From Candidatus Micrarchaeum sp. (lineage in GTDB: Archaea > SpSt-1190 > DYHY01): a stretch of DNA of 10,011 bases. The notes under the pieces are model-generated. The model worked only from the letters and a program-made list of their open reading frames with translations. It ran no database searches and was not told the origin of the DNA. A program made the position numbers and the translations under genes. Location of the stretch: positions 1-10,011 of the forward strand of contig DYHY01000006.1 of assembly GCA_020723935.1 (NCBI GenBank), given 5' to 3'. Below are positions 1-10,011 of the stretch, piece by piece; positions within the stretch are counted from its first letter, which is position 1, and each line of letters begins with the position of its first letter.

Positions 1-95
1 TGTCGATGGCCGCGACCTATCTGGAGAGCCTCAAGGGGAAGCTGGAGAGCCTGGGCGGAGCCGGAAGGCCGCCGGCACGGCCGCCGGCCGCCTAG
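1..95 (+). CDS. 3' end of an unidentified protein (partial)
   Basis: Reading from base 3, an open frame runs to a TAG at 93-95. It encodes about 30 residues: a short helix-prone stretch (ATYLESLKGKLESLGG) and then a Pro/Ala/Arg tail (GRPPARPPAA). The tail composition resembles the Ala/Pro linkers in the neighbouring proteins. The gene lies on the same strand as the next one but is separated by 87 bases that contain a promoter, so the two are probably transcribed independently. A self-complementary GC decamer (CCCGCGCGGG, 96-105) directly follows the stop. Too little is visible to name a function, and the start lies outside the window. Confidence 0.55.
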   Translation, partial: SMAATYLESLKGKLESLGGAGRPPARPPAA

Positions 96-182: not shown

Positions 183-2042
183 ATGGCCAAAGCTCAGACT
201 CCCGCCGCGACCGCGTCTCCTGCGGCAGCCGCGCCCAATCCGGACGACAATCCGGCGGGCGACTTCTCCAGCGAAGCCCCCCCGGGAAGCGCGGAAGCAG
301 GGCCCGTCATGTCCGCGACCGGCGGCGGAGGCGGCGGAGGTCCCGCCCTAATCAAGTTCATAGACGAGATAGACATGAAGGCCGTCCTCTCCGACATCGA
401 GAAGGTGAAGGCGGAACTCTCGGCGCTCAAGGAAGTCAAGTTCTCCGCGGACACCAAGATGAAGGAGTTCGCCGAGAGCATCGGGGAGCTACGCAACATG
501 TCAAGCACCCGCGACCAGTCCTTCCGCGAGGTGGAGGCGAAGGTCCTCAAGAGCGACGAAATAATGAAGGCGCTGCAGCCCCAGGTCATACTCACGGAGC
601 TCCAGAAGAGGGAGCGCGAGCTCGAGGGCACGCGCGCGCAGCTGGAGCGCACCACGATGATGCTCAACGAGACGATAGTGCAGGTGCGCGAGATCCAAAA
701 GTCGATGGACCGGGTCCGGGGGATAACGAACATCCTCGACGTCGACAAGGGCCTGAACACCAAAATAGGCCGCCTCGAGGAGCTCCTCGCGGCCGGCGAG
801 CGCTTCTCCGCGAAATCCGAGAAGCTCTACTACGAGATGGACAAGCGCATGTCCGACTTCCTCGTCCTCAAGGAGAAGCTGGAGCGCGTCGACGCCCTGA
901 CGAGGGAGCTCCTGAAGGAGTTCGACGAGAAGAAGATAAAGCTCTCCTCCGCCGCATCGACCGACGACATCACCCTCCTCAAGAACGAGCTCACCCAGAG
1001 GATGTCGGAGCTGAGGGAGGAGCTAAGCAAGAGGTCGGCTGCCGCGCCGGCCTTCTCGGAGAGTGCCCAAAGAAGGATGGTTTCGCTGGAAAGGCCGTTC
1101 TCGGAAGAGGCGGAAAGGATGGATGAGGCGGGCGGCCCCGCCCTCGTCGCAAGCCTGCTCAAGCAGAGGGACGACGTGAAGTCGGTCCTGACGCTCCTTG
1201 AGGAGGAATACCGGGAGGGCGAGATAACGGAAAAGGCCTTCCAGGAGGCGAGGGTGAAGAACGAGCAGAGGCTCGCCGAGCTCGACCAGCAGATCCAGTC
1301 CGGCGCTGTCCTCCCGACAAAACCGGTGCAGCCCATTTCCGCGGTGGCCCCATCTGAACCCGCGCCGGCTCCGGCCCCAGCTCCTGTGCCCGGGCCGGCC
1401 GCACCGATGCCCGCATCTCCATCGCTCCCTCCCCAACCCGTCCTAGGCCCGGCGCCGATTGTGGCGGTCCAGGCGCCCGTCCGCGAAGGGGCGCCAAGCA
1501 AGCCCTCCGCCGAGAGCCGTTCCGGAGCACCTGTCGAGAAGGGCTCTGAGGAGCTGGAGGCCATCCTTGAGGTCATAAACAACCTCCCCTCCCTGCACGC
1601 GCAGAAGCGGGACCTCGAGCGCATGCTCTCGATCCTCTCGCGCCAGTACAAGCACGGCGTGATAAACGAGGAGAGCTACTACGAGATAAAGGCCAAGTCC
1701 GAGGACAAGCTCGCGGGCCTCAACGAGCGCCTGACGGTGATGGAGACCCTGCCCTCCCAGGTCAAGCTCTTCCGCGAGGAGACGAAGCGCCTCAAGAAGA
1801 ACAAGGCGGAGCTGGTCACGCTCCTCGACCTCCTCGACAAGCAGAAGACGGACGGGATGCTGAGCGAGGACAGCTACCGCTCCTCGAAGGCTAGTTCCTC
1901 CCTGAAGCTGGGGGAGATAGACAAGCGCATCGAAATGCTCGAGAAGATAGTGGAGAAATACGCCTCGCCCGAGATGCACGGGAAGGGCGAGAAGGGACGG
2001 AAGGGCGAGAAAGGCAAGAAGGGGAGCGAAGCCAGGAAGTAG
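183..2042 (+). CDS. Coiled-coil scaffold protein with three helical-hairpin modules
   Basis: 619 aa, not assignable to a named family. Regions seen: an Ala/Pro-rich N-terminus (1-42), a run of seven glycines (47-53), a long heptad-rich coiled coil (about 56-285), hairpin copy A (325-371), a Pro/Ala-rich linker (about 374-455), hairpin copies B (472-517) and C (538-583), and a Lys/Gly tail with KGEKG-type repeats. There is no signal peptide or membrane helix, so the protein is expected in the cytoplasm. Each hairpin has an LxxhLxhL first helix, a Gly turn, a polar helix cap and an aromatic in helix two, loosely like SHOCT modules but longer. The same module occurs in the linker protein and in the giant glycoprotein tail, suggesting a scaffold that binds them. 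The downstream membrane protein begins 7 bases after the stop. The ATG at 183 is chosen for its fit to the promoter; the ATG at 309 (M43) would drop only low-complexity sequence. Resemblance to archaellum FlaC/D/E-type coiled coils was considered, but no specific motif supports it. Confidence 0.85.
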   Translation: MAKAQTPAATASPAAAAPNPDDNPAGDFSSEAPPGSAEAGPVMSATGGGGGGGPALIKFIDEIDMKAVLSDIEKVKAELSALKEVKFSADTKMKEFAESIGELRNMSSTRDQSFREVEAKVLKSDEIMKALQPQVILTELQKRERELEGTRAQLERTTMMLNETIVQVREIQKSMDRVRGITNILDVDKGLNTKIGRLEELLAAGERFSAKSEKLYYEMDKRMSDFLVLKEKLERVDALTRELLKEFDEKKIKLSSAASTDDITLLKNELTQRMSELREELSKRSAAAPAFSESAQRRMVSLERPFSEEAERMDEAGGPALVASLLKQRDDVKSVLTLLEEEYREGEITEKAFQEARVKNEQRLAELDQQIQSGAVLPTKPVQPISAVAPSEPAPAPAPAPVPGPAAPMPASPSLPPQPVLGPAPIVAVQAPVREGAPSKPSAESRSGAPVEKGSEELEAILEVINNLPSLHAQKRDLERMLSILSRQYKHGVINEESYYEIKAKSEDKLAGLNERLTVMETLPSQVKLFREETKRLKKNKAELVTLLDLLDKQKTDGMLSEDSYRSSKASSSLKLGEIDKRIEMLEKIVEKYASPEMHGKGEKGRKGEKGKKGSEARK

Positions 2043-2049
2043 GCGCGAC

Positions 2050-2907
2050 ATGGCAAGCAAGAAGGGCGCCCTCCGAAAGGGCGGGCCGGGCAAGGCGCCC
2101 GGGGAGGGCATTCCCCGCCGGGCGCGCATAATCCGCGCAGCCTATTTCCCGTTCCTAATCCTCCTCGCCCTCGTCGCGATCGCCTCCGCCGCAATATACT
2201 TCCTTGACATCGGGGACATTGCCGTCTACGACGGCCTTCCGGTCCTCGCCTCGTTCCTCGCGGCGGTTTCCGTGTCCGCGGTCCTCGCCTTCGACGTCTC
2301 CCTGGGCGGCGGCGTCCTGTCCGACGACCTCCTGCTTCTCGTCGGAATGCTCCTTTGGTTCCTAGCGGAAGCCGCCTGGTTCGTCTACGACGCGATATTC
2401 GGCGTTGAGGTCGCTTCCGGCGCCCTCCCCGACCTCCTCTGGCTCTCCGGATACGTTTTCGTCATAAGCTATTTGGTTAGGAAGCTCATCGCCCTCGGGG
2501 GGCGTTCGCCCGGAAGGATCGCGCTCGTCGTGCTGGTCCCGGCCCTCCTCGCCCTCGTCGGATGCTTCGCCGCGGCCGGAGCTTTCCGGTCCGCTGGGGA
2601 CCTCTCGCTTGCCGACGAGGCGACAGCCCTCCTCTACGTCGTCGCGGATTCCGCGGTGCTGGGCCTCGTGCTCCTCTTCATTTTCTACATCTTTTCCGGG
2701 GAGCTCGCCGCCGCGAACGTAATATTCCTCCTGGGCTTCGTGCTGATGACCGCCTCGGACGTCGCGTACTATTACTACCTGGCCCTCAGCGGCCGGTATT
2801 TTTCGGGGAGCCTCGCGGACCTCGGCTGGATCTTCGGCTATCTCCTGGTAGCGACCGCGATGGCGATGACCCTCAGGGTGATTTCGGAGCCCCTCCTAGA
2901 GCGGTAG
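2050..2907 (+). CDS. Eight-helix membrane protein with internal duplication, sensor-type membrane domain
   Basis: 285 aa. A basic cytoplasmic N-terminus (1-29, rich in K/R/G) is followed by about eight hydrophobic helices, near residues 30-52, 59-82, 91-117, 123-149, 154-179, 190-216, 220-246 and 255-278. Halves one and two each end in the same motif: SGALPDLLWLSGY (123-135) and SGSLADLGWIFGY (252-264), that is SGxLxDLxWxxGY at an offset of 129. By recollection of the family, this D..W..GY pattern is typical of the membrane-sensing domain found N-terminal to bacterial GGDEF/EAL proteins and histidine kinases. Here no output domain follows; the protein ends six residues after the last helix. 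It follows the scaffold gene by 7 bases with an AGGAAG possibly acting as ribosome site at 2034-2039, so the two are probably co-transcribed. It meets the linker gene tail-to-tail with a 6-base gap. A T-rich stretch at 2992-3000, inside the converging gene, could end this transcript. Ligand and partner are unknown. Confidence 0.85.
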   Translation: MASKKGALRKGGPGKAPGEGIPRRARIIRAAYFPFLILLALVAIASAAIYFLDIGDIAVYDGLPVLASFLAAVSVSAVLAFDVSLGGGVLSDDLLLLVGMLLWFLAEAAWFVYDAIFGVEVASGALPDLLWLSGYVFVISYLVRKLIALGGRSPGRIALVVLVPALLALVGCFAAAGAFRSAGDLSLADEATALLYVVADSAVLGLVLLFIFYIFSGELAAANVIFLLGFVLMTASDVAYYYYLALSGRYFSGSLADLGWIFGYLLVATAMAMTLRVISEPLLER

Positions 2908-2913
2908 GCAGAA

Positions 2914-3561
2914 CTACCTCTTCACTTTCTTCTTGCGCCCGCCCTTCTTCCCAGGCTTCCCCTTCTTCGGCGCGGCGCCCGCCCTTGCAGGTTTCTTTTT
3001 CCCCTTCAGCCTCTCCATCATCTTGGAGATCGCCTTGAGCTCGAAGTTGACCTCATGGAGCTTGGCCATCGCGTTCCGCCTTATCTCGTCGTAGGAGGCC
3101 CTGCTGACGATGCCGGCCGAAAGCTCCTTCTGCAGGAGGACGAGCATCTTTTCGAGGTCGCCCTTCTGCCTCTTCAGTTCCTCCAGGGAGAACTTGTCTA
3201 TCGCCGCGAAGAACTTGGCTTCCGGGTTCTCTATCGGCCGGGCGGCGGCAATGTCCTCTGCGGAGGAAGGAGCGGCTGGCTCCTGGGGCGCCGGATGCCC
3301 GTCCTTCTGCGGAGAGTCGCCGGCGGCCGCCGGCGGAGCGGGAGGAGCTGGAGCTTTCGTAGCTTCCGGAACAGCGGCGGCGGGAGATACAGCCGGCTTC
3401 GCTGCGGGCGCCGCCAGGGGCTCCGGCTTCGCCTCGGGCTTGTCGGAATAAGTCGCCTCCACCGCCAGAAGGCCTGCGCCCTCCTTTTCAGCGATCCTGA
3501 TCTTCGGAAGCTTCTTCTTCACCGCGTCGACAGCCCTGCGCAGAGGGTCGAGAATGCCCAT
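2914..3561 (-). CDS. Basic linker protein with one helical-hairpin module
   Basis: 215 aa from the ATG at 3561, no named family. Regions seen: an N-terminal amphipathic helix (MGILDPLRRAVDAVKKKLPK) that could lie on a membrane, a Pro/Ala linker (about residues 45-105), one hairpin module (core 130-175; LEKMLVLLQKELS at 136-148, Gly 150, Tyr 157, Leu 168), and a tail of about 33 residues made largely of Lys, Arg, Gly and Pro. The tail resembles that of the scaffold protein and could bind nucleic acid, acidic lipid or an acidic partner. There is no signal peptide. The frame is open up to 3642, but the extra 27 residues lie across and upstream of a good TATA box, so 3561 is the better start. The gene faces the glycoprotein gene divergently, which would allow shared control. 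Function is inferred only from the shared module. Confidence 0.8.
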   Translation of the reverse strand: MGILDPLRRAVDAVKKKLPKIRIAEKEGAGLLAVEATYSDKPEAKPEPLAAPAAKPAVSPAAAVPEATKAPAPPAPPAAAGDSPQKDGHPAPQEPAAPSSAEDIAAARPIENPEAKFFAAIDKFSLEELKRQKGDLEKMLVLLQKELSAGIVSRASYDEIRRNAMAKLHEVNFELKAISKMMERLKGKKKPARAGAAPKKGKPGKKGGRKKKVKR

Positions 3562-3582
3562 GAGGCATATTGTGACCCTCGC

Positions 3583-3590
3583 ATAAAAAT
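3583..3590 (-). promoter_or_regulatory. TATA box of the linker gene, giving a probably leaderless mRNA
   Basis: Read on the minus strand the sequence is GGCATTTTTATGCG, with a TTTTTATG core. Its centre lies about 26 bases upstream of the ATG at 3561. That matches the normal TATA-to-start distance in archaea, so transcription should begin at or within a base or two of the A of the ATG. This both explains the absence of a ribosome binding site and fixes the start codon. Confidence 0.6.
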
Positions 3591-3657
3591 GCCTTTGGAG
3601 CCGGAAACTACCTTTTTTGAATGGTGAAAAAGCAAAATGCACATATAATAGTAAGTC

Positions 3658-3668
3658 TTTAATTTAAA
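3658..3668 (+). promoter_or_regulatory. TATA-type promoter of the giant glycoprotein gene
   Basis: The AT-rich segment TTTAATTTAAA is the best plus-strand TATA candidate in the divergent region. It would place the transcript start near 3685-3692, inside the inverted repeat at 3677-3696, and leave a leader of about 35 bases to the GTG at 3724 or 80 bases to the GTG at 3769. A second candidate, CATATAAT at 3642-3649, would start the transcript near 3670 and put the whole inverted repeat in the leader. The sequence alone does not decide between them. Confidence 0.5.
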
Positions 3669-3676
3669 TGCCCCTT

Positions 3677-3696
3677 TTTGGGCTACATAGCCCAAA
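3677..3696. repeat. Perfect 8-bp inverted repeat, possible operator
   Basis: TTTGGGCT and AGCCCAAA form a perfect 8-bp inverted repeat around a 4-base spacer (ACAT). It lies between the TATA element and the coding start of the glycoprotein gene, at the predicted transcript start. No T-run follows the arms on either strand, so an intrinsic terminator is unlikely. A dyad at this position could be the site of a dimeric repressor, or a leader hairpin if the more upstream TATA is used. The flanking GCCCC-TTTT and GCCCCC-TTT runs (3670-3679 and 3699-3707) are near direct repeats. Confidence 0.5.
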
Positions 3697-3723
3697 CTGC
3701 CCCCTTTCGCGGCGCAGAAAGGC

Positions 3724-6700
3724 GTGAAGGGGAGAACCGGGCGGAAAAGAGAGGAGAGAGACAGCGCGGTGGCCGAGTCAAGGAGAAAGCGGGTTCTGCT
3801 CTTAGCCCTCCCTCTCGTTTTCCTGCTGCTGGCCTTTTCCGCCGGCTTCTCCGCGCCGGCGGGCTGGTTCAACTCGAGCTGGCACGTGCGCGTCCCGGTC
3901 AACGTCTCCTATCCAGGGGGGAACGAGAACCTCTCGGTGAACGTCACGCTCAACCTCACGCGCCTCTTCTCCCAGGCGAACATGTCGGGAGCGGCTCTGG
4001 ATTCCGGCTCTCTGCGCGTCATTGAGAACCAGACGCGCCTCCCCCTCGACTGGACGAACCTCACGGGCGGCGAGATTCTCGTCACATGGATCGCGAACGG
4101 AACGGTCGACGCGAACAACCGCACCTTCTACGTCTATTTCGACTCCGTCGCTAACGGCCCCAAGCAACCGGGCGACCTCATTCTCGATTCCATCCACTGG
4201 CGCTCGGGCTACATCAACTTCATGAACGACAACTCCCCCTACGTCAACAACACCACTGGCGCGGCCCAGATCCCCTACAACCGGAGCTGGGCGCAGAGGG
4301 TGGAAGTCTCCTTCAAGTGGGCCTTCCAGGGCGACGGGTTCGACAAGCTTCAGCTGTATGCCGACGGTGTCCAGCAGGGGTTCACCAGGTTCGGCGTAGG
4401 TTCCGCGAACGAATCCTACTGGGGCTCCGCGGTGCACGGGAAGGTGTCGACCAACGCCTTCGGCTCCTTCCAGGACGGCTTCGGGGCGAACGACACTTAC
4501 GGTATATACGGCGGCGCGATAGACACGGTGAAATTCTACCCCGTCAGGAACTACACGGTGGTCAACTACGTCCTTGTTTCCGATTCCGTCGAGCCCCAGC
4601 CGTCCAACGCGACTGCCGCGGCCAACCTCACGCAATACAACTTCAACGAGACGCTGGGTGTCTTTGGCATTGTGAGCGATGCGGGCGGCGCCGGGATCCC
4701 AGGGGCGAGCGTGAACGCGAGCGTCTTCTTCCCGAACGGCACGCTGATAGCCTCCCTCGCCGCATCGACGAACGCCAGCGGCTCTTACGCCATACCGTTC
4801 CTGATATCGTGGGAGGCGCCAAACGGCACGTACTCGGTGAACGTCTCGGCGGCGAAGAGCAGCTTCAACACCTCCTTCAACGGGACCACGTTCTACTACA
4901 CCGCGGACAAGGTGGCTAGCATCTCTGCCTTCTCCGTGACGCCGGGCCTCGGGGGCTGGAGCCAGTACTACAACTTCTCCGCGAACGTCTCGGATTTCGA
5001 CGAGAACAAGGACCTCGTGAACGTCTCCCTCTGGGTGAACACGGCCGCAAGCGGTTGGGTGAAATTCTTCCAGCAGAACCTGACGACGCCCAACTTCACC
5101 AACTGGACGATGAACCCCTTCGGGATAGGGGACATTGGGACGAACCGCACCTTCCTCTTCGAGTTCGCAGACACCTACCATCCGGCGATCAACACGACCG
5201 TCTCGACGGGGCCCGAGATAGAGCGCGACGACGTCGCGGTCGAGTTCCTCGGCACCGTCGGGAGCCCGATAATTAGGCCGGGAACCGGGAACGCCTCCTT
5301 CGCGATCTCACTCCGTGACACGGACAACGGGGCGCTCCTCCCCGTGCAGACGGTGCGCTTCTACGCGAACCTCACCGACGGCAGCTGGCTCCTGATAGAC
5401 ACCAATTTCACGGACTTCACCGGAAACTCCGCGGCCACGTTCGAACCGTCGTGCTCCTCGCCCTTCGGCATCAACTTCTGGAAGGCCAACTATTCGGAGT
5501 CTGTGGCATACAAGGCTGCCGAGTCTGACCCCTTCGTCTTCAACGTGACCGGCCAGAGCATCGTCAACCTGACCGAGCCCGTCCACTATTTCCTCCCCAG
5601 GCAGGGCGACGCGATACTCTTCCAGGCCAACGTGACGGACGAGTGCTCGGTCCCGATCCCCCACGCTTCCGTGAACTTCACGATAGTGAACGTGACGAAC
5701 AACCCGGCGAACTTCGCCTGCCGTGACGCGGCCCAGTTCGGCGCAGGCGGCCTCTACAACTGCACCTGGAACTCGTCGGGGGCGAACGCCGGGAACTACA
5801 CCGTCGTCATCAACGCGAGCCAGGCCTCGAGCATCCTCAACATCACGTCCTTTGAGAACTGGTTCTACCTCCTGACCGGGCCCCCCAAAATAAACCTCTA
5901 CGTGAGCCCGCGCCAGTTCGACCAGCTCAGCAGCACGGTCGTCACTGCCGCCGTCACCGACTTCTCGGGCCTCAACATCTCCGTCGCCAACATCACCTTC
6001 ACGAGCCCCAACACGACGGTCTACGCGAGCAACATGACCCTCGCGGCATTCGCGAACATCTCGGGGAACTGGGTCTTCAACTACACAGTGACCTTCCCCG
6101 GGACGTGGGGGTCGACCATCCAGCGCGGCCTCTACTCGATATACGCGACGGCCGTCGACGGCATCGGCAGCTCCGGGAACAAGACGGACAGCGCCACGAT
6201 CTACAGCTACGTGAACCTCACTGGAAAGACGGACGTGTCCTTCTACCAGGCAGATTCCACCCCGCGCCTCGTTGTGAACGCGACCGACCTCTTCGGCGTG
6301 CCGATAGCCGGGCTCCTCGCGAACCTAACAGTCTCGGACCCCTCCTGGATCCCCCTGGAATTCACGAACGGCGTGACGCAGGCGTCCCTCAATACCTCCG
6401 CGAACGGGACGGCCTCCAAGACATTCTTCCTCCCGGCCGGCTCCACGCCCGGAGTCTACACCGTCCAGACGCAGGCGAGCTTCTTTGAGCCCCTCATAGA
6501 CGAGACGATATACTTCAACCGGACCGCCGCCTTCGCGGTGACGAACCTCACGTCCTTGGAGGCTTTCCTCTCCTTCCCCCCTGACGTGTTCCTCGCAAAG
6601 AAGCTCTCCTTCTCCCTCTGGGTCAAGAACGACGTGACATACCTCAAGCCCGACAATTTCAGCGTCAACTTCTACTACGACGACCTCAACGGGACGTCCG

Positions 6701-8268
6701 TCCCAATCCACATGGCATTCAACCTCTCCAAGGCCGACTTCCTGGAGCTCGGCGGGACATACGCCTATTATTATTACTCGGGAACCACGCCGGGCTGGAA
6801 CTTCGGGCAACATCACGCAGTCCTGGAAGGGACGGTGGGCGGCACCCCTTTCGTCGCGGTGGCCCCGTTCCAGGTCCTCCAGGGGGGCCCCTTCGACGTC
6901 GAGATCCAGGCGCTCAACTCCCCCGTCGGCCAGGGCAACCGTCTCAACGTCCAGACGAACATCACGAACCGCGGCTCGGCCGACCAGTTCGACGTGATGG
7001 TGACATACCTCCTCGACGGCGTGACGCCTGTGGGCGGAGGCCCGGTCCAGGTGAACGGGGGGACCAAGAGGATCTTCTACGACAGCCTCCTCGTGCCGCT
7101 CGCGACGCCGATCGGCATCCACAATATGACCGTCCGCGTTGACTACAACGGGACGAGCAGCCCGGCCGTCGCATTCGACCTCTTCGTGGTCACCTCCGCC
7201 TCCACGACGACCGCGCCGCCCGGGCTTTCGGGCGGCGGGGGCTTTGCGGGCGCGGGCCCGATTCCGGAGGCGACGACGACCTCGATTCTCCCCGGCAAGC
7301 CGACCTTCGGGATCACGATCTCAGACTATCCGCGCGAGCGCGACCTCTTCGTCGAGAGGAACAGCATCAAGTTCTTCAATGTCGAGGTGAGGAACGTGGG
7401 GTCTGAGACCCTCCACGACATCAGGATAGGGATCGCGGGCATTTCCGACTCTTGGTTTGAGATAACCGCGAGCAACACGAGCTACCTTGACCCCGACGCG
7501 ACGGCCAACTTCGTCGTCAGGCTCGTCGTGCCCAACGAAGCCAAGGCGCAGACCTACCCGATAACGATATCCGCGTCGGCGAACGAGACGTCGACATCCA
7601 AGGTGACGGCCGTCTCCGTCTTCGCCTCTGAGAAGGAGCGCCTCTTCTACGAGATACAGTTCCTGAAGAGCAGGTACACGGACCTGCAGGACGCCCTCGC
7701 GATAGCGGTGCAGAACAACAAGAACGTGAGCGACATCGTCGACATCATGGCGCAGGCGAAGCTGCAGGTGGACACCGCCGCGAAGTTCGTGGACGACGGG
7801 GCCCTCCGGAACGCGGGCGACGCCATAAGGAAGGCGCACAACTACCTGGACCGCGCCGAGTTCGAGCTCAACCGCCTCCCCCAGGTCCCGACGACGGTGC
7901 CGCCCGTGGTCTCCTTGATCTTCCCGGTGACGGCATTCCCCTACTTCATCGCGCTCCTCATAATACTCCTGGGGATAATCGTCCTCATCTGGGTGGCGAA
8001 GACTATGCGCCGCGTGAAGAAGATAGTGAAGACCGAGGCCGCGGCGCAGCTCAGGCGGGCCCTTGACACGAAGAAGACGCCCGGGGACATGATCAAGTCG
8101 CGCGAGAGGATCAAGAGGTTCCTCTCCGTCATAGAGGGCCAGTACAGGGACAAGGCGATGTCCAAGGAGACCTACGAGGAGCTCAGGCGCGAGAACGAGA
8201 AGAAGCTCGCCGTCCTCAGCAAGGAGCTGGGGATGGAGGACGAGATCGCGCCCTCCCAGAAGAAGTGA
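3724..8268 (+). CDS. Giant sequon-rich surface glycoprotein with C-terminal anchor and cytoplasmic hairpin tail
   Basis: 1514 aa from GTG 3724. A second in-frame GTG at 3769 (V16), preceded by GAGGAG at 3751-3756, gives a shorter and more typical signal-peptide n-region and may be the true start. Numbering here uses 1514. A signal peptide (ESRRKR, then a hydrophobic core about 23-42) ends near A46. A DUF2341-like domain starts at G47 (GWFNSSWHVRVPV). It is followed by a jelly-roll-like stretch (about 155-300), a carboxypeptidase-regulatory-like fold (about 308-385), several beta-sandwich-like segments (about 396-1055), a CARDB-like domain (1056-1155), a T/P/G-rich linker (about 1157-1190), a NEW3-like domain (1192-1301), a juxtamembrane helical region (1303-1390), one membrane helix (about 1404-1425) and a cytoplasmic tail. 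The tail holds one hairpin module (IKRFLSVIEGQYR, 1463-1475; Tyr 1484; Leu 1495). By hand I counted about 71 N-x-S/T sequons, all before the membrane helix. Likely an adhesin or cell-envelope protein, tied to the scaffold through its tail. Confidence 0.88.
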   Translation: MKGRTGRKREERDSAVAESRRKRVLLLALPLVFLLLAFSAGFSAPAGWFNSSWHVRVPVNVSYPGGNENLSVNVTLNLTRLFSQANMSGAALDSGSLRVIENQTRLPLDWTNLTGGEILVTWIANGTVDANNRTFYVYFDSVANGPKQPGDLILDSIHWRSGYINFMNDNSPYVNNTTGAAQIPYNRSWAQRVEVSFKWAFQGDGFDKLQLYADGVQQGFTRFGVGSANESYWGSAVHGKVSTNAFGSFQDGFGANDTYGIYGGAIDTVKFYPVRNYTVVNYVLVSDSVEPQPSNATAAANLTQYNFNETLGVFGIVSDAGGAGIPGASVNASVFFPNGTLIASLAASTNASGSYAIPFLISWEAPNGTYSVNVSAAKSSFNTSFNGTTFYYTADKVASISAFSVTPGLGGWSQYYNFSANVSDFDENKDLVNVSLWVNTAASGWVKFFQQNLTTPNFTNWTMNPFGIGDIGTNRTFLFEFADTYHPAINTTVSTGPEIERDDVAVEFLGTVGSPIIRPGTGNASFAISLRDTDNGALLPVQTVRFYANLTDGSWLLIDTNFTDFTGNSAATFEPSCSSPFGINFWKANYSESVAYKAAESDPFVFNVTGQSIVNLTEPVHYFLPRQGDAILFQANVTDECSVPIPHASVNFTIVNVTNNPANFACRDAAQFGAGGLYNCTWNSSGANAGNYTVVINASQASSILNITSFENWFYLLTGPPKINLYVSPRQFDQLSSTVVTAAVTDFSGLNISVANITFTSPNTTVYASNMTLAAFANISGNWVFNYTVTFPGTWGSTIQRGLYSIYATAVDGIGSSGNKTDSATIYSYVNLTGKTDVSFYQADSTPRLVVNATDLFGVPIAGLLANLTVSDPSWIPLEFTNGVTQASLNTSANGTASKTFFLPAGSTPGVYTVQTQASFFEPLIDETIYFNRTAAFAVTNLTSLEAFLSFPPDVFLAKKLSFSLWVKNDVTYLKPDNFSVNFYYDDLNGTSVPIHMAFNLSKADFLELGGTYAYYYYSGTTPGWNFGQHHAVLEGTVGGTPFVAVAPFQVLQGGPFDVEIQALNSPVGQGNRLNVQTNITNRGSADQFDVMVTYLLDGVTPVGGGPVQVNGGTKRIFYDSLLVPLATPIGIHNMTVRVDYNGTSSPAVAFDLFVVTSASTTTAPPGLSGGGGFAGAGPIPEATTTSILPGKPTFGITISDYPRERDLFVERNSIKFFNVEVRNVGSETLHDIRIGIAGISDSWFEITASNTSYLDPDATANFVVRLVVPNEAKAQTYPITISASANETSTSKVTAVSVFASEKERLFYEIQFLKSRYTDLQDALAIAVQNNKNVSDIVDIMAQAKLQVDTAAKFVDDGALRNAGDAIRKAHNYLDRAEFELNRLPQVPTTVPPVVSLIFPVTAFPYFIALLIILLGIIVLIWVAKTMRRVKKIVKTEAAAQLRRALDTKKTPGDMIKSRERIKRFLSVIEGQYRDKAMSKETYEELRRENEKKLAVLSKELGMEDEIAPSQKK

Positions 8269-8297
8269 AGACGTCCCCCTTCCCCGCGGCCCGCCCC

Positions 8298-8305
8298 TTT
8301 TCTTT
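8298..8305 (+). terminator. T-rich stretch after the glycoprotein gene, possible terminator
   Basis: TTTTCTTT lies 30 bases after the glycoprotein stop codon, in a C-rich stretch with no strong hairpin. Archaeal polymerase often terminates at such pyrimidine runs without a stem. It falls just before the tail of the converging transporter remnant. The assignment rests on position and composition only. Confidence 0.3.
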
Positions 8306-8308
8306 CCC

Positions 8309-8752
8309 CTAAGCCACGGAGCCTTCCTTCCGCTGCCTCGTTCCGGCCGCGTCCGCGTAGGCCGTCCAGAAGAACTCCTTGGCCCGCTTCTCCTTCCCCG
8401 CCGCCTTGAGCGAGTCGTAGAGCATCGCGTCGTCCGCGCCGGACAGGAAGGCGACGCCCGCGGCCATCAGGAGCTCGCCGAGGAGGAAGGCGCGCAGATC
8501 CGGGACGCTCCAGTACGCGATCGCGCCCAGGCAGTACGCTCCCGCCCCCATGGCAAGCGAGTATTTCCTGCCGATCCTGTCGGCGACGACGCCCGTCGGG
8601 ACCTCGAGGGCAAAAGACCAGAACATGAACCCTGATTCGAGCAGCATCACCTGCGCGAACGTGATCTTTCCCCACTGCGTGAAGAACTGGATGAGCACGC
8701 CGCCGAAGAAGGCGAGGCTTGAGAGGAACTGGAAGAGGTAGGCCTTCCACAC
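8309..8752 (-). pseudogene. Truncated major-facilitator-superfamily transporter (N-terminal third)
   Basis: 147 codons from a GTG at 8752; full MFS carriers usually have about 400 residues and 12 membrane helices. About four helices are visible. The MFS loop signature between helices two and three appears as EVPTGVVADRIGRKYSL, followed by a family-typical SGADDAMLYDSLKAAGKE segment. The match stops near FFWTAYADA, where the family would continue into helix five. A short unrelated tail (GTRQRKEGSVA) then leads to a TAG. Downstream on this strand lies the antisense of the glycoprotein gene, so the missing two thirds are not nearby in another frame. The frame upstream of the GTG reads SNV before the WKAY start, with a stop (TGA) ten codons above the GTG. 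No TATA-like promoter precedes it. A 3' deletion remnant is most likely; a functional mini-transporter is possible but unlikely. Confidence 0.7.
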
Positions 8753-8810
8753 GTTTGACGCGACGCCCCCAAGTAATCATCAACCATTGCTTCTGCGGCG
8801 CCTAGAGCCT

Positions 8811-8828
8811 CCGAAAACCCTTAAATAT
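8811..8828 (+). promoter_or_regulatory. BRE/TATA promoter of the MinD-like gene
   Basis: CCGAAAACCCTTAAATAT combines a purine-rich BRE-like GAAAA with a TTAAATAT box at 8821-8828. This is the most canonical archaeal promoter in the window. Transcription is expected near 8848-8852, giving a leader of about 16-20 bases before the ATG at 8868. An in-frame GTG at 8856 would be almost leaderless and would add four residues. Confidence 0.65.
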
Positions 8829-8867
8829 GCCACTGTATTTAATGAACTCCAGGTTGTGTTTTCGGAA

Positions 8868-10011
8868 ATGACGATTCCGTTGGACAGGGCGAGGATAATC
8901 GGCGTGGTCTCTGGGAAGGGCGGCGTCGGCAAGACAATGCTCACCGTGAACCTGGGCCTTTCGCTCGTCCAGGAGTTCAGGAAGAAGGCCCTCGTCGTCG
9001 ACGGGAACATCACTTCCGCAAACCTCGGCCTACACCTCGGGTTCCTCTACCCCCCGACGACGATACAGGACGTCCTCGACGACAAGGTCGCTCCCGCACA
9101 GGCCGTCTACATCCAGGAGAGCGGCCTGCACCTCATCCCGGCATCCCTTTCCATCAAGCGCAAGGCGTACTACGAGAAGCTCCGGGACAAGATATACGAG
9201 CTCGTGGACAACTACGACGTCATACTGATTGACGGCGCCGCCGGCATCGGCGCCGAGGTCAAGGCGACGATGCATGCGTGCGATGAAATAGTGGTCGTGA
9301 CTACGGCCGAAGTGCCAGCCGTTGCAGGAGCTCTCAAGGTGATAGAAACCGCGAAGGAAATGGACGTCCCCGTCCGCGGCATCGTCGTGAACTGTTTCAA
9401 GCGCAGGGCCTTCGAGACGAGCGTGCGCGAGATAGAAGCTACGTGCGGCCTCCCGGTCCTCGCCGTGATACCCGACGATCAGGAAATCCCGGCTTCCATA
9501 GCCCATCGGATACCCCTCGTCAAATACCGCCCCCAGTCGGAAGCTTCCAAGGCGATCCTGCGCCTGGCAGGGGTCCTGGTGAACGAGAAATACCAGGACA
9601 GGACGCCCTTCCTTGTCCGCGCGCAGCACAACGTCCTTGCGGCCCTCGGGCTCAAGGAGGCTCCCATAAGCCAGCCCGAAATCAGGATGGACGACAATTT
9701 CAAGTTCCTGCGCCGCCAGGCAGCCGGGGAGAGGGAAGCCATGGTCGCCGAGGAATCCAAGAAGGAGATGGAGCTCGGAAGGCAGCTTTCCGACGACAGA
9801 ACTTCCCTTTCATCCGGCCCCGGGGCGCAAGAGCACGAGGCGCCTGAATCCGGGTTCCCCATGGAAAAAGTGCGCGAATTGGAAGGGGATATGGCAAGCC
9901 TTCGCCGGATAAAGGATCTCCTTGAGAAAGGAGACAATGACCTCTCGTCCCTTGAGGCGGAACTGGCCAAAGTGCGCAAAATCCTCCTTATTCTCGAAAG
10001 GGAGCGCAAGC
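8868..10011 (+). CDS. MinD-like ATPase with long C-terminal helical extension (partial)
   Basis: 381 codons visible; the frame is open at the window end. It is a SIMIBI/MinD-family P-loop ATPase, a class that dimerises on ATP and positions cell structures at membranes. Seen: a deviant Walker A, GKGGVGKT (16-23, signature K17, K22); switch I, DGNITSANLGLHLG (45-58); Walker B, VILIDGAAG (118-126); and VVVTTAE (142-148). Differences from bacterial MinD: M24 for Thr in GKTT, N47 for the switch-I Asp, G123-A124 for Ser-Pro, and A147 for Pro. The ATPase domain ends near 245, close to the normal total length of about 260. An extension follows: a segment 247-320, then a heptad-rich stretch from M332, ending in VRKILLILERERK (369-381). 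That end matches the first helix of the hairpin module in the neighbouring genes. The ATG at 8868 fits the promoter; GTG 8856 is an alternative. Mrp/NBP35 is unlikely because the C-terminal CxxC is absent. FlhG- or ParA-like roles remain possible. Confidence 0.88.
   Translation, partial: MTIPLDRARIIGVVSGKGGVGKTMLTVNLGLSLVQEFRKKALVVDGNITSANLGLHLGFLYPPTTIQDVLDDKVAPAQAVYIQESGLHLIPASLSIKRKAYYEKLRDKIYELVDNYDVILIDGAAGIGAEVKATMHACDEIVVVTTAEVPAVAGALKVIETAKEMDVPVRGIVVNCFKRRAFETSVREIEATCGLPVLAVIPDDQEIPASIAHRIPLVKYRPQSEASKAILRLAGVLVNEKYQDRTPFLVRAQHNVLAALGLKEAPISQPEIRMDDNFKFLRRQAAGEREAMVAEESKKEMELGRQLSDDRTSLSSGPGAQEHEAPESGFPMEKVRELEGDMASLRRIKDLLEKGDNDLSSLEAELAKVRKILLILERERK

Follow-up and report, generated by a model that had tools for sequence, protein, structure and literature searches.

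Four neighbouring and otherwise unrelated archaeal proteins (a large surface protein, a coiled-coil scaffold, a linker and a MinD-like ATPase) are shown by profile comparison to have one homologous helical-hairpin module in common, and searches of archaeal genomes show this module to be specific, across many archaea, to a type of gene cluster built around a HerA/VirB4-type membrane ATPase. The stretch of DNA analysed here (the window) covers bases 1 to 10,011 of contig C29 in an archaeal assembly of 1.14 Mb that is 91% complete, and it comes from a tiny, probably symbiotic archaeon. Given the homology and locus specificity of the module, together with the gene order, the topology and the predicted hairpin fold, we consider it on balance probable that the window encodes part of a surface machine conserved among archaea, in which the hairpin would act as a docking tag that clusters the surface protein beside the ATPase, with MinD providing positioning.

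The window opens with the C-terminal codons of the membrane ATPase gene (3..95, forward strand), where frame 3 reads SMAATYLESLKGKLESLGGAGRPPARPPAA up to the stop codon; the remainder lies on contig C45, which ends in the same gene (its ORF ends in NMSMAATYLESLKGKLESL) and is identical to the window start over at least 52 nt. The 619-aa coiled-coil scaffold follows on the same strand (183..2042), and its orthologue in relatives lies directly 3' of the ATPase gene. It carries three hairpin copies, detected as profile matches at residues 323-372 (1149..1298, forward), 469-518 (1587..1736, forward) and 534-584 (1782..1934, forward). Only 7 bp further 3' lies the gene for a 285-aa multi-pass membrane protein (2050..2907, forward), which is assigned to no family and gave no match in a Pfam search. 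The 215-aa linker (2914..3561, reverse strand) combines an amphipathic N-terminal helix (hydrophobic moment 0.80, a value reached by 2% of shuffles) with a proline/alanine-rich middle, a single hairpin found by the profile (copy 4; 3034..3183, reverse) and a basic tail. The surface protein, a putative adhesin of 1514 aa (3724..8268, forward), has 70 N-glycosylation sequons, MG2 and NEW3-type domains detected with Pfam, a C-terminal membrane helix, and a cytoplasmic tail in which the profile locates copy 5 (8080..8229, forward). Its membrane-adjacent NEW3/NPCBM-associated beta domain (7375..7578, forward) scores slightly below the Pfam cut-off (E 8.6e-5) and is predicted by AlphaFold2 as a high-confidence beta fold. 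The MinD-like ATPase (8868..10011, forward; ATG at 8868 as probable start) extends to contig position 10121, and the first helix of its hairpin (copy 6; 9948..10011, forward) closes the window. Whole-protein matches in Pfam and NCBIfam to PspA, FlhF, SMC, tropomyosin and similar families were set aside as noise from low complexity and coiled coil.

A first-pass annotation of this DNA had described five gapless hairpin copies, three in the scaffold and one each in the linker and the surface protein. All five were found where it had placed them, and inspection by eye bore out the claimed residue pattern (counted from the start of the first helix, Gly at +14, replaced by Lys in the surface-protein copy, a hydrophobic residue at +16, S/T/N at +17, Y/F at +21 and Leu at +32). 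The other copies are 22-32% identical to copy 1. Leave-one-out profiles, in which four copies were used to retrieve the fifth from 563 ORFs of the same genome, recovered the copies at i-E 6.6e-9, 1.7e-13, 6.4e-5, 1.3e-7 and 2.4e-5, whereas the best score in three shuffled ORF sets was E 1.6. Furthermore, in an 815-aa tropomyosin-like coiled coil from the same genome the terminal hairpin alone was significant, with the remainder at E 1 or worse. The leave-one-out recovery, the shuffles and the tropomyosin-like control together show that the similarity among hairpins is not that of generic coiled coils. The match in the MinD-like protein, previously seen over 13 positions at the window edge, is real, but it belongs to a full rather than a partial copy: beyond ten Ns (10012-10021), an assembly gap whose true length may not be ten, the frame continues as ISEESYNELKAGNERKLEQLQEKI (profile E 1.7e-6), with the rest of the hairpin at contig positions 10022-10094 and a stop at 10121. 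Two further copies are held by a coiled-coil gene on the same contig (11734-12405), which adjoins a TrmB-type regulator, and another (E 1.4e-9) ends a long coiled-coil protein of contig C16, where a type IV pilus locus encodes it together with MinD, pilins and a T2SSF platform protein. In the rest of the 1.14 Mb genome there is no further hairpin match at E 0.01, the next being a stretch of 17 residues on contig C36 at E 0.03. Type IV pilus loci with coiled-coil proteins have been described in DPANN archaea (PMC11291902); the C16 locus is similar in content, whether or not its coiled-coil protein is orthologous to the published ones.

The association of the module with the ATPase was assessed at several scales. 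A search for the ATPase in one genome per species (84,980 species) returned 238 relatives, and the best 80 of these, chosen without using the hairpin module, bear labels that are almost all DPANN archaea or Altiarchaeota, plus Hydrothermarchaeum. Hairpins are present in neighbour genes at 40 of these best 80 loci. The half that have none are mostly more distant, Woesearchaeota-type loci, and the module is therefore not essential to the ATPase family. A profile of the five copies was run against 22 whole archaeal genomes, as the first-pass annotation had proposed, and did not pick up coiled coils irrespective of locus: 56 of its 67 matches at E 0.01 or better lie less than 10 kb from the ATPase gene, in loci that account for about 1.9% of the sequence, and the other 11 comprise four in surface proteins of about 2,000 aa elsewhere and seven others. 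Because 19 of the 22 genomes had been picked for having the module at the ATPase locus, one match per locus is expected, and the scarcity of matches elsewhere is unaffected by that choice. Three genomes with a module-free ATPase locus gave no match to this profile anywhere. In a separate set of 61 genomes the module was present in all six with a closely related ATPase versus five of the 55 others (Fisher p 8e-6), in a comparison for which the ATPase profile was partly built from the same six genomes and in which fragmentary assemblies belonging to the same class account for two of the five exceptions.

Gene order also recurs in relatives, running from the ATPase to a hairpin scaffold, a surface protein with a hairpin tail and, often, MinD. 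At loci with the module, a coiled-coil protein with one to three hairpins lies at or near the 3' side of the ATPase, and there is often a large surface protein, rich in sequons, whose cytoplasmic tail is a hairpin; MinD falls within the fetched flanks, which often end at contig ends, at 11 of the 40. Fusions of MinD to the hairpin recur in a sister genome (G001, with two copies) and at two places in Hydrothermarchaeum, one of which directly adjoins a coiled-coil protein with three hairpins. Across loci, surface-tail hairpins are 44% identical and scaffold N-terminal copies 41%, whereas hairpins of different kinds within one locus are 27-34% identical. Since identity across loci exceeds identity within a locus, these copies are old and have been kept distinct, rather than being recent duplicates, and the identity comparison shows ancient conservation of each hairpin in its own protein, at least for the surface-tail and scaffold N-terminal copies. 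The C-terminal copies of the scaffold form a mixed group in which identity across loci is 31%, and the pattern does not extend to them.

The first MinD-like ATPase shares with archaeal MinD/ParA-type ATPases, such as those of Haloferax, a deviant Walker A motif (GKGGVGKT) and a match to the archaeal MinD model TIGR01969 (E 1.2e-57), at 195 bits slightly under the cut-off of 201.75, and it ends in the hairpin, apparently in place of their membrane-binding tail. The last stretch of this hairpin is amphipathic (moment 0.64), and a second MinD gene, overlapping the end of the first, encodes a separate amphipathic tail (moment 0.70, with 0.9% of shuffles as high). The MinD membrane tails of relatives appear amphipathic on inspection, and only that of the second MinD in the window genome exceeds shuffles. 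MinD/ParA-type positioning ATPases are described as regulating the placement of motility structures and other cargoes (PMC11588486).

The first-pass annotation had drawn these proteins together into a membrane-linked surface system of four parts. That scheme overlooked the membrane ATPase, a core member whose last codons open the window. The ATPase ORF on contig C45 (about 580 aa; E 5.8e-239 against the ATPase profile) combines a short ectodomain with membrane helices and a domain of HerA/VirB4 type (DUF87, E 1.1e-10), and HerA is the closest of the solved structures to the ATPase profile (E 2e-12). In many relatives a giant protein ends in the ATPase and contains 80 to 250 sequons within the fetched part, and the family defined by the profile includes a frame of 11,262 aa and another of 8,891 aa, the latter (in G027) with a second ATPase adjacent. 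Giant membrane-anchored surface proteins of nanohaloarchaea were first named SPEARE (PMC6642349) and later reinterpreted as consisting of an Ig-rich ectodomain, a membrane helix and a VirB4/TraG-type ATPase, with rejection of the earlier protease and nuclease assignments (PMC10266531). The family found here resembles them in its ectodomain, membrane region, cytoplasmic C-terminal HerA/VirB4-type ATPase and short helical tail, and the neighbouring second ATPase in G027 matches what was reported for nanohaloarchaea. It differs in that the ATPase of the window genome lacks a very large ectodomain, whereas the frames of relatives reach thousands of residues, and in its hairpin scaffold, hairpin-tailed surface protein and MinD partners, which are absent from both published descriptions (PMC6642349; PMC10266531). 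Neither laminin-G nor serine protease domains, which belong to the original SPEARE definition, were found in the one relative searched, a 3,779-aa fragment. The system, supposed to be undescribed, is consequently not entirely so, because its ATPase belongs to the nanohaloarchaeal giant surface protein family already in print (PMC6642349; PMC10266531). The ATPase family and SHOCT domains, to which we relate the hairpin below, were known; the partner genes, the shared hairpin and the combination of ATPase and SHOCT-like module with scaffold, surface protein and MinD were found in none of the open-access journal papers covered.

In an alternative reading, the system would be chiefly a secretion or DNA-transfer machine run by the VirB4/HerA-type enzyme, with the hairpins coupling accessory proteins to it. 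The proximity of the ATPase profile to HerA is consistent with such a role, and secretion has been proposed for the nanohaloarchaeal giant proteins from their VirB4/TraG-like domain and an adjacent VirB4 gene (PMC10266531). We nevertheless regard it as rather unlikely, since the window genome contains no second ATPase of the HerA/VirB4-type family elsewhere with a comparable score, the neighbourhood of the window shows no further recognisable component of type IV secretion, the ATPase protein itself gave no hairpin match, and an ATPase domain does not by itself prove transport.

On sequence criteria, the module is best called an extended SHOCT-like hairpin of about 48 residues, a relative of SHOCT rather than a member of it. 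The shared helical hairpin first proposed is thus a real module, but not a wholly new fold, since it is related to SHOCT (PF09851). With SHOCT it shares two short helices, a tight turn, a frequent C-terminal position and a motif formed by a conserved glycine (the turn glycine, present in four of the five window copies), a hydrophobic residue at Gly+2, Ser/Thr at Gly+3 and Tyr/Phe at Gly+7. It differs in spanning about 47-50 conserved columns, against about 30 residues without insertions or deletions in SHOCT, in recurring inside scaffolds and in being tied to one gene-cluster type. Comparison with a profile of real SHOCT sequences (hhalign) gave a probability of 94.6% and a score of 32.3; the highest score among 100 column shuffles was 14.7, and scaffold coiled-coil windows reached at most 13.8. 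The best matches of the Pfam SHOCT model in three relatives fall on the module, at 20.7 (G001), 17.4 (G005) and 16.1 bits (G009) versus a cut-off of 27; G000 has no match to that model at E 0.01, and the module stays under the cut-off everywhere tested. Single-chain AlphaFold2 predictions yield two confident helical hairpins for the scaffold tandem (mean pLDDT 88), with models for copy 2, mostly at pLDDT above 90, and copy 3, and a beta domain, three helices, a membrane helix and the copy 5 hairpin for the C-terminal part of the surface protein (mean pLDDT 82). In a structural comparison, the tandem-hairpin model matched CdvA best (Z 10.7); CdvA also gives a weak Pfam match to copy 1 (E 0.0054, below cut-off), and no further CdvA feature was seen. 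As fold relatives, neither CdvA nor the Asgard OST1 cytoplasmic domain (Z 9.5) rises above the range of unrelated helical bundles. The gas vesicle protein GvpG was rejected (weak Pfam match at E 0.015, no gas vesicle context seen), as were module matches in solved structures, which fall on single hairpins of unrelated enzymes and of one chain from a toxin family, at E 0.007 or worse.

The relation to SHOCT bears on how the hairpins would act. A canonical single SHOCT domain did not oligomerise in the sole reported test, and a role in localisation was suggested for it (PMC3581485). The first-pass view is supported in part, for the homology and locus specificity of the module, with glue between its own copies as a candidate role that this test does not favour. 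The same result, the kinship with SHOCT and the C-terminal position of several copies, like that of sorting tags, would also fit a SHOCT-like tag for one common third partner (membrane, chaperone or hub), in which case the copies would not bind each other and neighbours would share the hairpin by virtue of having that partner in common. This appears rather improbable to us: scaffolds hold two or three copies, some of them far from the ends, and scaffold N-terminal copies and surface tails are distinct and separately conserved, unlike a uniform sorting tag. Lastly, the idea that the hairpins are products of ordinary coiled-coil convergence, with no shared origin or function, could appeal to short, charged, helical sequences of low identity to copy 1, but it is refuted here, and left with a negligible likelihood, by the leave-one-out significance and its shuffle control, the whole-genome locus specificity of the profile and the low profile-comparison scores of the scaffold's own coiled-coil stretches relative to that of SHOCT.

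In the docking model that we favour, the HerA/VirB4-type ATPase and the large glycosylated surface protein would sit in the membrane, with the coiled-coil scaffold and its one to three hairpins on the cytoplasmic side. Hairpins from the surface-protein tail, the linker and MinD would pack against those of the scaffold, or share a partner with them, and the surface protein would thereby be clustered beside the ATPase, while the MinD pair, with one hairpin tail and one amphipathic tail, would tie this cluster to the membrane and position it. We infer physical docking, MinD positioning and a function in attachment, and the lifestyle of the organism suggests attachment to a partner cell. Because the hairpin is common to four proteins and marks the same cluster in about 40 other loci, beside a membrane ATPase known from giant host-contact proteins, it probably holds an attachment machine together. 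Shared domains, as a caveat to the docking model, need not bind each other, and points against it are the SHOCT oligomerisation result, the lack of the module at half of the ATPase loci, the presence of MinD within the fetched flanks at only 11 of 40 module loci, and the short ATPase ectodomain in the window genome.

Every cultivated DPANN archaeon reportedly lives in attachment to other archaea (PMC11291902), and which proteins build the attachment structures is not known, a point made for YN1 (PMC11420986). DPANN archaea are abundant, and the locus offers defined and conserved parts, namely a membrane ATPase, an adhesin-like protein, a scaffold and MinD, linked by the hairpin as a single tag open to testing. 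SHOCT-like domains, whose role was still an open question in 2013, also gain a concrete setting from this locus. More tentatively, and with doubt prevailing, one hairpin code may assemble an organelle for attachment or translocation that is widespread among DPANN archaea and their relatives, in which cognate SHOCT-like hairpins would join a surface ATPase and an adhesin, both giant, to a scaffold in the cytoplasm and a MinD protein for positioning. If this were true, the locus would supply candidate genes for host-contact organelles that lack identified proteins.

Within the window, a 147-aa open reading frame (8309–8752, minus strand) lies between the genes for the surface protein and the hairpin-tailed MinD. 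Its similarity to MFS transporters is confined to their N-terminal third, and it is probably a gene remnant.

The extended SHOCT-like hairpin also forms the terminal part of an 815-aa coiled-coil protein encoded elsewhere in the same genome, in a type IV pilus locus (contig C16, 1–14000) that comprises several pilins, a T2SSF protein and a MinD. This protein may be the counterpart of the coiled-coil proteins of DPANN pilus loci (PMC11291902). Hydrothermarchaeum carries two separate MinD-hairpin fusions (loci L150 and L156), one adjoining a three-hairpin coiled-coil protein and the other lying near genes for a KaiC-like protein and a histidine kinase. A zinc ribbon follows the hairpin tail in two further archaeal loci (L110, 14118–20339; L146, 9241–10776), a pairing that SHOCT proteins are reported to show as well (PMC3581485).

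The HerA/VirB4-type ATPase also occurs in Woesearchaeota-type loci devoid of the hairpin (L100, L102, L104, L114, L126 and similar), where a sequon-rich protein of approximately 1,000 aa is encoded immediately 5' of the ATPase gene. In genome G055, the ATPase domain (contig C2, which also carries locus L080; 63707–65080) is embedded in an unbroken open frame of 11,262 aa, exceeding the 9,409 aa of the largest protein reported in cultivated archaea (PMC10266531).

Beyond the window, approximately 5 kb downstream of the MinD pair, contig C29 harbors a row of Roadblock, KaiC-plus-Arf-like GTPase fusion, second Roadblock-like and KaiC-like ATPase genes (15390–18224). On the same contig (11255–12405), a gene encoding two hairpins is overlapped by one for a TrmB-type winged-helix regulator, an arrangement that hints at a regulatory branch of the hairpin system.
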